From: an uncultured Bacteroidia bacterium
GTDB lineage: Bacteria; Bacteroidota; Bacteroidia; NS11-12g; UBA9320
Length of the DNA stretch: 36,648 nucleotides
Direction: 5' to 3'
Assembly (NCBI GenBank): GCA_905478335.1
Contig: CAJQIC010000041.1
Coordinates: forward strand, 1-36,648
Shown here: positions 28,089-32,483 of the stretch, piece after piece
Layout: each line of letters opens with the position of its first letter
Position numbering within the stretch: position 1 is the stretch's first letter
The notes under the pieces: model-generated
The model's database searches: none
Told to the model about the DNA's origin: nothing
What the model saw: only the letters and a program-made list of their open reading frames with translations
Made by a program: the position numbers and the translations under genes

Positions 28089-28172
28089 CAAATAAGTTGT
28101 CAGTAAGAATTTAGACCAACGACACCATAAACGTATACTAGAATTTTTAGAGCAAGATTTAGGTACTTCATG

Positions 28173-28200
28173 AGCCCTTCACATTGTGGGGGGCTTTTTT
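28173..28200 (+). terminator. Intrinsic terminator after the RidA-family gene
   Basis: AGCCCTTCAC-ATT-GTGGGGGGCT forms a ten-pair stem including G-T pairs, followed by a run of six T. It lies 85 bases after the stop at 28088. Confidence 0.75.
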
Positions 28201-28502
28201 ATGCAAGATTTTCTCTGTTGTATGATTATGCCAAAGAGAATAGAGCAGAGAACATAGAGAATAGACTTATCAGGTTTTAGAAGAACAAGTCACTACTTTA
28301 TTCATTAGCAGCCAAAAGCAAATAGCTAACAGCCAAAGGCCAATAGCAATTAGTGTGTATAGAAATGAGAATATAGATAATAGAGTAAAGACTGTCTCTG
28401 CATGCGATTTAATCGCGTTTACTTATTCACGTGTTCAATCCTTCAATCCTTCAATCCTTCAAAATTCAGACATTCAATCCTTCATTCTTCAATACTTCAA
28501 AA
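28201..28502. repeat. Intergenic mosaic of short-period repeats
   Basis: About 300 bases without a gene between convergent units. From left to right: purine-rich AGAGAATAGA/AGAACATAGA units (about 28234-28266); AGCCAAAAGCAAATAGCTAAC-type units of roughly 14 bases (about 28306-28351); more AGAATATAGATAATAGAG units (about 28360-28392); then an array of 8-base units, with three exact TTCAATCC copies at 28434-28457 and degenerate copies to 28500. The array ends three bases before the ribE stop. Confidence 0.7.
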
Positions 28503-29841: not shown

Positions 29842-29917
29842 AACTATTTTTAGTTTAACATTAGATTATAGAACATAGAAAAGAGAAAATAGACTTTGAT
29901 GTGCTATCAATTGTGTC

Positions 29918-30304
29918 TCACTTTACTGTATTAGTTGTCAACCTGTTTTGAAAACTCATTGTCATGCGTTGGAATTCTTCAATTTTTGATTCAAACTTTT
30001 CTAATGCCTTTTCACTTAGGTATCTTCTATGATATGCGATTAGTAATTGAGTGCCAAGCTCAAATGACGAACCAAGTGCAATATCAATAAAGTGTGAGAA
30101 TGATTTCGTTGAACGTGCTGAGCCTTCTGCAATATTGCTAGGCATCGATATGGAGCATCTACTTAACTGAGACCTTAAATTGAACATCTCTTGATGTGGT
30201 AAGGTGCCAATCAAATCGGATACGTCATATGAGATTTCAAGAGCCAACTGCCAGATTATTAATTTCTTGTAGTTGTGTCTTTTATTTCCAGTGCTCGCAA
30301 CCAA
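29918..30304 (-). CDS. Four-helix-bundle protein (23S rRNA IVS/S23-like)
   Basis: 128 residues matching the four-helix-bundle (TIGR02436) family first found as ORFs in intervening sequences of 23S rRNA genes and related to the Avd accessory protein of diversity-generating retroelements. Blocks: YKKLIIWQLALEIS, FNLRSQLSRCSISMPSNIAEG and HFIDIALGSSFELGTQLLIA. Individual copies are scattered widely in Bacteroidota genomes; their function is unclear and nucleic-acid binding is suspected. The frame starts at TTG 30304 and no ATG precedes the first conserved block. It sits in the same direction between sdhA and sdhB, with purine-rich short repeats on both outer sides. No reverse transcriptase or rRNA is nearby. 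Confidence 0.85.
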   Translation of the reverse strand: MVASTGNKRHNYKKLIIWQLALEISYDVSDLIGTLPHQEMFNLRSQLSRCSISMPSNIAEGSARSTKSFSHFIDIALGSSFELGTQLLIAYHRRYLSEKALEKFESKIEEFQRMTMSFQNRLTTNTVK

Positions 30305-30467
30305 TCTATCTTCTTTTATCCGTTTTTATCTTGTTATACTTTTCTAATTTAATTAATCCTTATTTCATTTGAATAGAATTCCTCCTTATGTAACCGCCAA
30401 GTCTCTAATCTTTATTCTATTCTCTTTAAGTCTTGTGTTTTTAACACAAAAAAAGCTTTACTGCCTT
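30305..30467. repeat. AT-rich spacer between sdhA and the four-helix-bundle ORF
   Basis: Contains, on the minus strand, purine-rich AGAGAATAGAATAAAGATTAGAG (30399-30425 region), similar in type to ATAGAACATAGAAAAGAG at 29871-29896 on the plus strand beyond the other end of the ORF, so the two flanks are in inverted orientation. It also holds a 7-bp inverted repeat TTGTGTT-TTT-AACACAA (30433-30449). That repeat has its T-run on the wrong side to act as a terminator for sdhA. Confidence 0.5.
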
Positions 30468-32483
30468 CTATTTATAACTCCTCTGCTTTAATTCAATATC
30501 CTTAAACTCGAGTTCTTCTTTATGCAGAATTGCATCTTTTGGTTCTCCCGTATATTCCCAAGCGGAAACATATGCGTAATTTTTATCATCACGTTTCGCT
30601 TCTCCTTTTTGTTCGCCATCAAGCTCGACAGATTCTTCACGGAAGTGACCTCCGCAAGATTCATTTCTGTCTAAAGCGTCTTTAGCAAACAACTCCCCAA
30701 GCTCCAAAAAGTCAGCCACTCTGCCTGCTTTTTCCAATTCAGTATTCATGCCGTCGGCTCTACCTGGAACTAAAACATCGCTCCAAAACTCTGCGCGAAT
30801 GCTTTGAATCTCTTCAATTGCTTCTTCTAGTCCTTTGGTATTTCGAGACATGCCTACTTTGTCCCACATCACCTTACCTAAGCGTTTATGGAAGTAATCT
30901 ACCGTTTTGGTTCCTTTGTTATTGACCAACTGATTGATACGGTCAGTAACATTTTTTTCCGCTTCCTCAAATTCTGGTGTATCCGTAGGGATTTTTCCTG
31001 TTCGAATGTCGTCTGACAAGTAATCTCCTATTGTATAAGGCAACACAAAATATCCGTCAGCCAAACCTTGCATCAACGCTGAGGCACCCAAACGGTTGGC
31101 ACCATGGTCCGAAAAGTTTGCCTCACCAATGGCGTAACAACCGGGTATGGTCGTCATTAAATTATAATCAACCCAAACGCCTCCCATGGTATAATGTGTG
31201 GCTGGGTAAATCATCATTGGCGTTTTGTATGGGTTTTCAGCGACGATTTTCTCATACATCTGAAACAAGTTACCATATTTGGCTTCAACAACTTTTTCAC
31301 CAAGTGAGGTGATTTCTTCTTTGGATGCGTTTACAAGGCCTTTTAATTTCGCTTGTTCGCTTCCGTATCGCTCAATGGCTGCACCGAAGTCAAGGTAAAC
31401 TGCTTCACCCGTTTCATTGACACCATATCCAGCATCGCATCTTTCTTTAGCAGCACGTGAGGCAACATCTCTAGGTACTAGGTTCCCAAATGCCGGATAC
31501 CTTCTTTCTAGATAGTAGTCTCTATTTTCTTCGGTAATTTCTGTTGGCTTCAACTTTCCTGACCTAATGGCTTGCACGTCGTCCATGTTTTTAGGTACCC
31601 ATATACGCCCGTCATTTCTTAATGATTCAGACATCAATGTTAATTTCGATTGATAGTCACCTGAACGCGGAATGCACGTTGGGTGGATTTGAGTATAACA
31701 TGGGTTGGCAAAATATGCGCCTTTCTTGTGGATCTTCCATGAAGCAGTTACGTTCGATCCCATTGCATTTGTTGACAGGAAATAAACGTTTCCATATCCA
31801 CCTGAAGCAATAACTACTGCATGTGCCGAGTGTCTTTCGATTTCGCCAGTTACCAAATTTCGAGCAATGATTCCTCTTGCTTTACCGTCCACAAGTACAA
31901 CGTCCAACATTTCATGTCTGTTGAACATCTCAATTTTACCACGAGCGATTTGACGGTTCATGGCAGAGTAGGCGCCAAGTAACAATTGTTGACCAGTTTG
32001 CCCTTTTGCGTAGAAAGTACGGGATACCAAAACACCACCAAAAGAACGGTTGTCTAATAGGCCACCGTATTCTCTGGCGAATGGTACACCTTGAGCAACA
32101 CATTGGTCGATGATATTGGTCGAAACTTCAGCCAGACGATGCACATTCGCTTCGCGAGATCGATAATCACCACCTTTTACCGTATCGTAAAAAAGTCGAT
32201 AGACAGAGTCGCCATCGCCTTGATAATTCTTGGCTGCGTTTATTCCGCCTTGAGCAGCAATGGAGTGCGCTCGACGAGGAGAATCTTGATAGCAAAATGC
32301 TTTTACATTGTAGCCTAATTCAGCCAATGTAGCTGCGGCAGAACCACCTGCCAATCCTGTACCTACAACAATTACATCGATGTGTCTTTTGTTGGCAGGG
32401 TTTACCAAGTCAATTTTATCTTTATATGTGGTCCATTTATCTTTAATTGGACCCTTAGGTATTTTAGAATCTAACTTACTCAT
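30468..32483 (-). CDS. sdhA: Succinate dehydrogenase/fumarate reductase flavoprotein subunit
   Basis: FAD-containing catalytic subunit of complex II that oxidises succinate to fumarate. The 671 residues show the Rossmann motif [19 protein letters not shown], the covalent FAD attachment region [23 protein letters not shown] (His), a substrate-binding and catalytic region ([17 protein letters not shown] with the catalytic Arg), GGVWVDYN, and [21 protein letters not shown]. The length matches the larger type-B enzyme of Bacteroidota and Epsilonproteobacteria. It starts 15 bases after the sdhC stop and is followed by an unusual insertion before sdhB. Confidence 0.96.

Follow-up and report, generated by a model that had tools for sequence, protein, structure and literature searches.

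An insert between sdhA and sdhB

The window considered here, which is the whole 36.6-kb stretch of DNA that was analysed, comes from a genome designated G000; G001 is its closest relative and G004 is a more distant congener. The genes for the flavoprotein and iron-sulfur subunits of succinate dehydrogenase are parted in the window by an insert with an ORF and two repeat arrays, and further arrays without an ORF lie outside the insert. The features are as follows.

30468..32483, minus strand: sdhA, succinate dehydrogenase flavoprotein subunit, upstream neighbour of the insert
29842..30467, minus strand: whole insert, from the sdhA stop to the sdhB start, exactly 626 bp
30398..30425, minus strand: 5′ array of 4 in-register AGAnnA heptamers in the same direction as the ORF, 25 bits
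29918..30304, minus strand: ORF of the PF05635/TIGR02436 four-helix-bundle family (S23p, 23S-IVS type), 128 aa, TTG start
29863..29897, plus strand: 3′ array, in inverted orientation to the 5′ array, of 5 AGAnnA heptamers in register, 31 bits
29092..29841, minus strand: sdhB, succinate dehydrogenase iron-sulfur subunit, downstream neighbour of the insert
28433..28495, plus strand: TTCAATCC (8-mer) array without an ORF, of the family that forms the arms of the G000 PF05635 element on contig C55, adjoining a folA-like gene
28361..28395, plus strand: AGAnnA array without an ORF, 5 units, same family as the insert arms, 29 bits
28310..28336, plus strand: AGCnAAn array without an ORF, of the family that forms the arms of the G000 PF05635 element on contig C29
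28235..28269, plus strand: AGAnnA array without an ORF, 5 units, same family as the insert arms, 33 bits

An earlier note on this DNA had described sdhA and sdhB as separated by 626 bases carrying a co-directional ORF of the S23/IVS type, with inverted purine-rich repeats on either side of the ORF and ORF-less copies of the repeat near 28234-28266 and 28360-28392. Each of these observations was borne out. The gap is exact, the ORF matches PF05635 with an E-value of 1e-28 and exceeds the curated cut-offs of PF05635 and TIGR02436 (100 bits versus 33.8 and 93.5 bits versus 24, respectively), the repeats are the AGAnnA arrays at 29863-29897 (+) and 30398-30425 (-), and the ORF-less copies are the arrays at 28235-28269 and 28361-28395. 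The repeats had thus been noticed, but the heptameric nature of the arrays and their apparent specificity for a protein subfamily had been missed.

Both AGAnnA arms of the ORF lie inside the insert, phase-locked and mutually inverted, and the AGA triplet is spaced at exactly 7 nt in all four arrays of the window, each with 4-5 repeats. When the whole 36.6-kb window was scanned on both strands, no AGA-type array beyond those four exceeded 18 bits; the 99th percentile of the shuffled-arm reference is 16.7 bits. The position of the insert is between two protein genes and not in a 23S rRNA helix. A perfect hairpin, TTGTGTT-AAA-AACACAA, lies at 30430-30450, after the sdhA stop and before the 5′ array; it was not seen in the G004 copy of the insert. 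In the convergent intergenic region between a RidA-like gene and riboflavin synthase (28110-28500), three array families form a mosaic, and each of them matches the arms of one PF05635 element of G000.

Inverted arrays flank PF05635 genes

Five PF05635 ORFs are present in G000, and 23 of 29 relatives have some. The flanks of 63 PF05635 ORFs carry inverted arrays of short degenerate words that differ between elements: the two arms of one element score 15.3 against each other versus 8.65 for swapped arms (z 25), likeness in direct orientation is much weaker, and autocorrelation peaks at lags 7 and 14 in both flanks. The same holds within one genome (own arms 15.5, other elements 8.8, p 2e-9) and for 30 class-wide elements (15.3 versus 8.7). 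An arm score of at least 13 is reached by 60% of PF05635 ORFs versus 4.9% of ordinary ORFs; the approximately 40% of PF05635 ORFs in relatives that are without clear matching arms may reflect decay or another type of element. Where arms could be scored, G exceeds C in the 5′ arm of 33 of 38 elements, with the reverse in 4.

The architecture extends to a second phylum. Twelve PF05635 loci on cyanobacterial plasmids have own-arm scores of 19.0 versus 9.6 (0 of 20000 permutations) and a lag-7 autocorrelation of 0.41, with arm words that include AGGGAAC and GTAGGGA; exceptions exist, such as locus L318, where the arrays are in direct orientation. The occurrence of inverted 7-8-mer arrays around about 60% of Bacteroidota PF05635 ORFs, and around those of cyanobacterial plasmids, is new here, as are the link between word and protein subfamily, the low likeness of neighbouring units, the dispersed arrays that match the arms and the near absence of arrays from six sampled PF05635-free genomes, each described below.

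Neighbouring genes are co-directional with the ORF in 75 of 76 AGA-type loci, 27 of 30 class-wide elements and 39 of 57 loci in relatives, and this near-constant co-directionality suggests that the module is probably expressed together with its host operon. In one fad operon (contig C3 of G015), two PF05635 ORFs with unlike flanks (L038 and L060) are found before and after the thiolase gene. Among the plasmid loci, PF05635 genes also lie inside cas operons (L317, L318 and L320), between cas6 and cas4 in Anabaena 90 and Pseudanabaena and between cas10 and cmr3 in Picosynechococcus. The family has been listed earlier as CRISPR-associated (PMC3936711, PMC10910872), and hitchhiking, which offers a simple reason for finding PF05635 genes inside operons such as cas loci, is likely the simpler reading of that association.

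The array word follows the protein subfamily

When GTDB representative genomes were scanned with the AGA-type protein as query, 80 close homologues were found, mostly in Flavobacteriaceae and in many genera. They occupy 14 junctions, mainly that of thiolase and acyl-CoA dehydrogenase, then homogentisate dioxygenase-4HPPD and sdhA-sdhB, followed by single sites. Both flanks carry AGAnnA arms at 51 of 55 fad, 8 of 8 hgd, 3 of 3 sdh and 3 of 9 other junctions; the earlier note had proposed a search for further copies of the ORF, and their flanks are indeed alike. Most of the 80 homologues are at one old site (fadA-acyl-CoA dehydrogenase) where they are apparently vertically inherited, which implies that movement at that site is infrequent. 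The ORF tree needs 14 site changes, at least three of which are forced by well-supported branches.

Among 172 elements, when the two compared differ in both site and genome, the likeness of their arms rises with protein identity, from 8.6 at <45% to 11.7 at 55-65% and 15.2 at ≥65%, and arm pairs at the same site score 15.0, equal to the pairs of at least 65% identity elsewhere. None of 300 permutations reaches the observed correlation between arms and proteins. With the 80 AGA-type loci left out the trend remains (r 0.09, 1 of 300), in a set with few close pairs. Judged from these sequence comparisons, the array word belongs to the protein subfamily rather than to the site or the host, and travels with the protein. 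The word can also change. An orthologous element at a folA-like junction has TCAATCC arms in G000 (L104, C55) and G001 (L097, C46) and TWATTC arms in G004 (L101, C2), and the genome-wide array family differs in step with the arm word, suggesting that arms and dispersed arrays changed word together.

Structure of the arrays

The heptamer of the AGA family is fixed at positions 1-3 and 6 and free at positions 4, 5 and 7. At the free positions, adjacent units resemble each other no better than units drawn at random from other elements do (0.374 versus 0.368), and an origin of AGA arrays by slippage was rejected on this ground. The number of units per arm is narrow, with a mode of 5 in the 5′ arm and 4 in the 3′ arm; other array families have a median of 4.6 units with a period of 7 or 8. 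Fixed and free positions, a narrow unit number and the lack of likeness between neighbours together form the pattern of repeated recognition sites, not of slippage. Arms of 4-5 units fit one unit per subunit of a pentamer, a compatibility that is suggestive only.

Arrays without an ORF

Arrays of the same families are dispersed in the genome. Most of the sequences analysed are draft genomes or MAGs. Counts were made by whole-genome pattern matching, with patterns that were picked after the arms had been seen; the numbers for G000 and G004 therefore follow in part from the choice of pattern, whereas the contrasts with relatives do not. On this basis, three repeats of AGAnnAk occur 22 times in G000, 11 times in G001 and 20 times in G004, never in G002 or G003, and at most once elsewhere. 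Three repeats of TCAATnCn occur 34 times in G000, 9 times in G001 and not at all in 27 others, and three repeats of TWATTCnn 47 times in G004, twice in G001 and once in G023. AGCnAAn, again in three repeats, is found 29 times in G000 and 35 times in G004 and is sparse elsewhere; its cognate ORF is present only in these two genomes, on different sides of a gmd gene. The less specific pattern WTTGANA is spread across G000, G001 and a few others. A de novo scan of sampled stretches, in a small sample of related genomes, found 1 array in 430 kb from six PF05635-free genomes versus 15 in 471 kb from six genomes with PF05635, with no more than one at control periods.

Convergent intergenic regions hold many of the ORF-less arrays, with several families mixed. 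A 0.9-kb convergent intergenic region of G000 (L135) consists almost entirely of alternating array families, with the near-repeated blocks TTGAGAGTTGA, GACTCAGGACGCAGGACT, TTCAATCC and AGAATATAGA. Slippage has probably expanded some dispersed arrays that are near-perfect (AGCCAAT, TTCAATCC).

The sdh junction in relatives

In the 29 relatives the gap between sdhA and sdhB is mostly 1-44 bp. The earlier note had proposed a search for the empty site in close relatives, and it is found in G001, whose SdhA is 97% identical and whose gap is a clean 30 bp; the gap is 25 bp in G003 and 91 bp in G002. An occupied junction is found in G004 (SdhA 93% identical), where the gap of 648 bp holds an ORF 74% identical to that of G000, with AGA arms. 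An AGA-type ORF also lies at the sdhA-sdhB junction of Bizionia arctica and Arenibacter troitsensis, and two genomes (G020 and G021) of a genus in another family (g14) have there a distant PF05635 ORF (33%) of a different subfamily and with a different word, WTAACCN. In G026 (L025) the junction holds a short AACCAAT array and no ORF, and two congeners carry at that place a PF05635 element with a similar word; the array is possibly an ORF-less derivative.

The reading of the insert as a small element, inserted into the operon, appears largely right on these comparisons. The earlier note had called it a recent insertion, and of that description the small ORF-carrying element with inverted repeats, co-directional with the operon, stands, while its recency is not established, an ORF of this kind occupying the junction in other hosts as well. 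Its recurrence in G004, Bizionia, Arenibacter and g14 implies that the junction has been used repeatedly or for a long time, and presence of the ORF is patchy even within a genus. G001 retains AGA arrays in its genome with no ORF at the sdh junction, and because these arrays are kept, G001 may as well have lost the ORF as G000 gained it. Vertical descent from a single arrival at the junction was considered and set aside, as the sdh-site ORFs are ungrouped in the best tree, although they may share one origin. No target-site duplication was evident on reading the sdh gaps, where occupied and empty sites have diverged in their intergenic DNA.

The PF05635 protein

The predicted monomer of the sdh ORF product (pLDDT 89.5) has four helices, and its fold matches 2GSC best, as well as 2RLD and Avd. 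The solved homologues 2GSC and 2RLD have five chains each, and 2GSC has been reported to be a pentamer (PMC4990558, PMC10053308). Homology suggests that the sdh ORF product may likewise form a ring of five four-helix bundles. No catalytic residue was recognised in the protein.

Purifying selection acts on the ORF, yet its non-synonymous rate is about three times that of sdhA and sdhB (dN 0.16 versus 0.05), and stops interrupt 5 of 63 PF05635 copies; the fast dN and the stops fit the expectation for a selfish gene. A partner acting in trans was sought in two protein families. Reverse transcriptase proteins (PF00078) are lacking in 26 of 29 genomes, G000 (100% complete) among them, and the Y1/RAYT family PF01797 has no match in G000; neither was retained as a general requirement. 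A single-protein query found no viral copies of the element.

A proposed hitchhiking element and its alternatives

The sdh insert is one copy of a widespread and patchily distributed module, consisting of an S23p/PF05635 gene framed by a pair of inverted arrays, each with about 4-5 degenerate heptamers. The reading that we favour, with a probability of about 0.58, is that it is a hitchhiking element whose pentameric protein would recognise the arrays of its own module. The reading draws on the architecture of the module, the linkage between heptamer and protein, the change of site, the empty site, the dispersed matching arrays, co-directionality and the fold. The ring would read the arrays unit by unit at both ends of the module, at about one heptamer per subunit, and this recognition would mark the DNA (or RNA, or a single-stranded copy) as a unit to be kept, copied or moved. 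That a gene is bounded at both ends by putative recognition arrays in inverted orientation suggests a unit of DNA. With no obvious promoter of its own, the module would sit co-directionally in operons and be expressed with them, making insertion cheap for the host, and array-only derivatives would be left scattered in intergenic DNA, as REPs are around RAYT genes. Mobility would be driven by the PF05635 protein and some catalytic partner; the model requires neither a reverse transcriptase nor a RAYT.

The strongest competitor, which we consider unlikely, places the constraint in RNA. The arms would pair in the sdh mRNA to form a stem enclosing the ORF, and either RNase III would cut it or the sdhA stop and the sdhB start would be brought together, so that the heptamers are constrained by pairing or processing and not by the protein. 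The intervening sequence (IVS) of Coxiella is a precedent, with a 28-bp terminal stem, GACAGAT heptamers before the S23p ORF and excision by RNase III (PMC4990558), and the nearly invariable co-directionality of the module would be expected. Own arms also pair slightly better than swapped ones (-20.8 versus -18.4 kcal/mol), and better than arms permuted internally at their free positions (-20.0 versus -19.3, 0 of 40), which amounts to weak in-register complementarity. Free positions, however, match only weakly between arms (0.544 versus 0.518), and the sense strand has no excess of G.U-compatible over A.C mismatches (25 versus 37; 66 versus 59), a count for which sense-RNA pairing was rejected as the main constraint, with the weak complementarity remaining. 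Nor would pairing explain the use of one word per protein subfamily across unrelated hosts and sites, or the unpaired arrays dispersed between convergent genes.

Regulation of the host operon is a less probable alternative still. TRAP offers the analogy of a ring protein that recognises multiple spaced sites, and a similar protein could bind the array in mRNA (or DNA) and tune its own gene and the next gene of the operon, making the module a domesticated regulatory cassette. The arrays, with their regular spacing and their fixed and free positions, look like targets for a ring that contacts several sites. The 5′ array stands ahead of the ORF start, the 3′ array ends near the start codon that follows it, and the host operons are frequently catabolic (fad, sdh, hmgA-hppD, scoA-scoB). 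Against this, the arms are inverted and the mRNA would thus carry the motif in one arm only, the dispersed arrays lie in 3′-3′ intergenic regions and not at promoters, and a domesticated cassette sits poorly with patchy presence even within a genus, with a dN about three times that of the neighbours and with stops in 5 of 63 copies.

It is very improbable that the arrays are simple repeats born by slippage and common in Bacteroidota, with the ORF an unrelated passenger: heptameric repeats are over-represented in many bacteria, with slippage proposed as their source (PMC4692102, PMC4679880), and some dispersed arrays (AGCCAAT, TTCAATCC) are near-perfect, but neighbouring units are not alike at their free positions, unit number is narrow, arms match and are inverted within an element, the word follows the protein subfamily, and arrays are nearly absent where PF05635 is absent.

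Comparison with known systems

IVSs of 23S rRNA with an S23p ORF are known in Leptospira and Coxiella and have been called selfish elements (Warrier et al. 2016, PMC4990558). As cited there, Ralph and McClelland (1993) suggested mobility of the IVS by way of its ORF; the Coxiella S23p ORF has been reported as probably not expressed (PMC4990558). The sdh module shares with these IVSs the protein family and the terminal inverted repeats that frame the S23p ORF, and with the Coxiella IVS the tandem heptamers upstream of that ORF (PMC4990558). In contrast to the IVS, which sits in an rRNA helix, the sdh-type module is found between the protein genes of operons, its arms are degenerate arrays with a subfamily-specific word, and matching arrays are dispersed in the genome.

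The module also resembles the REP/RAYT system (REPtron), in which a gene is flanked by inverted copies of a repeat that is dispersed intergenically and follows the gene lineage; the inverted repeats that flank the sdh-junction module are likewise dispersed in the genome. The RAYT protein, however, is a nuclease of the Y1/HUH class and its REPs form hairpins, whereas the module has a small helical-bundle protein without a known nuclease motif and heptamer arrays, and no PF01797 protein was detected in G000. Avd of diversity-generating retroelements (DGRs), described as homologous to PF05635 (PMC10053308), has the same fold as the sdh ORF protein (4DWL; DGR RNP 8UB7; Foldseek probability 1.0, TM 0.65-0.78). 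A DGR has a reverse transcriptase and G000 has none; no TR/VR-like arrangement was noticed around the module, and flanking arrays are not a described part of DGRs.

Known heptanucleotide repeats (cyanobacterial STRR; TAACTGA arrays, PMC4679880; G-rich heptamers, PMC4692102) are, like the arms, tandem or degenerate, intergenic and found in the same phyla, and the cyanobacterial arm words AGGGAAC and GTAGGGA resemble them. They differ in that no protein is linked to them in PMC4679880 or PMC4692102, whereas the arrays described here frame PF05635 genes and their word follows those genes. Searching the literature open without subscription, we found nothing beyond the remark on Coxiella that links PF05635 to heptamer arrays.

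To our knowledge, S23p/PF05635 has been without an established function since 1993, and no maker is known for heptanucleotide arrays. Their linkage ties a protein family without a function to arrays without a maker, makes binding of a protein's own word versus its neighbour's directly testable and, with many natural pairs of protein and word, would allow a recognition code to be read. We tentatively extend this, at somewhat less than even odds, to the family as a whole: PF05635 proteins may, in two phyla or more, be trans-acting readers, and perhaps makers, of families of heptamer arrays, each protein a five-fold ring that would step along DNA or RNA in 7-nt units with a word set by its subfamily. 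The heptanucleotide repeats of Bacteroidota and Cyanobacteriota would then be footprints of S23p elements, and the IVS of 23S rRNA would be one special insertion site among those that such elements occupy.
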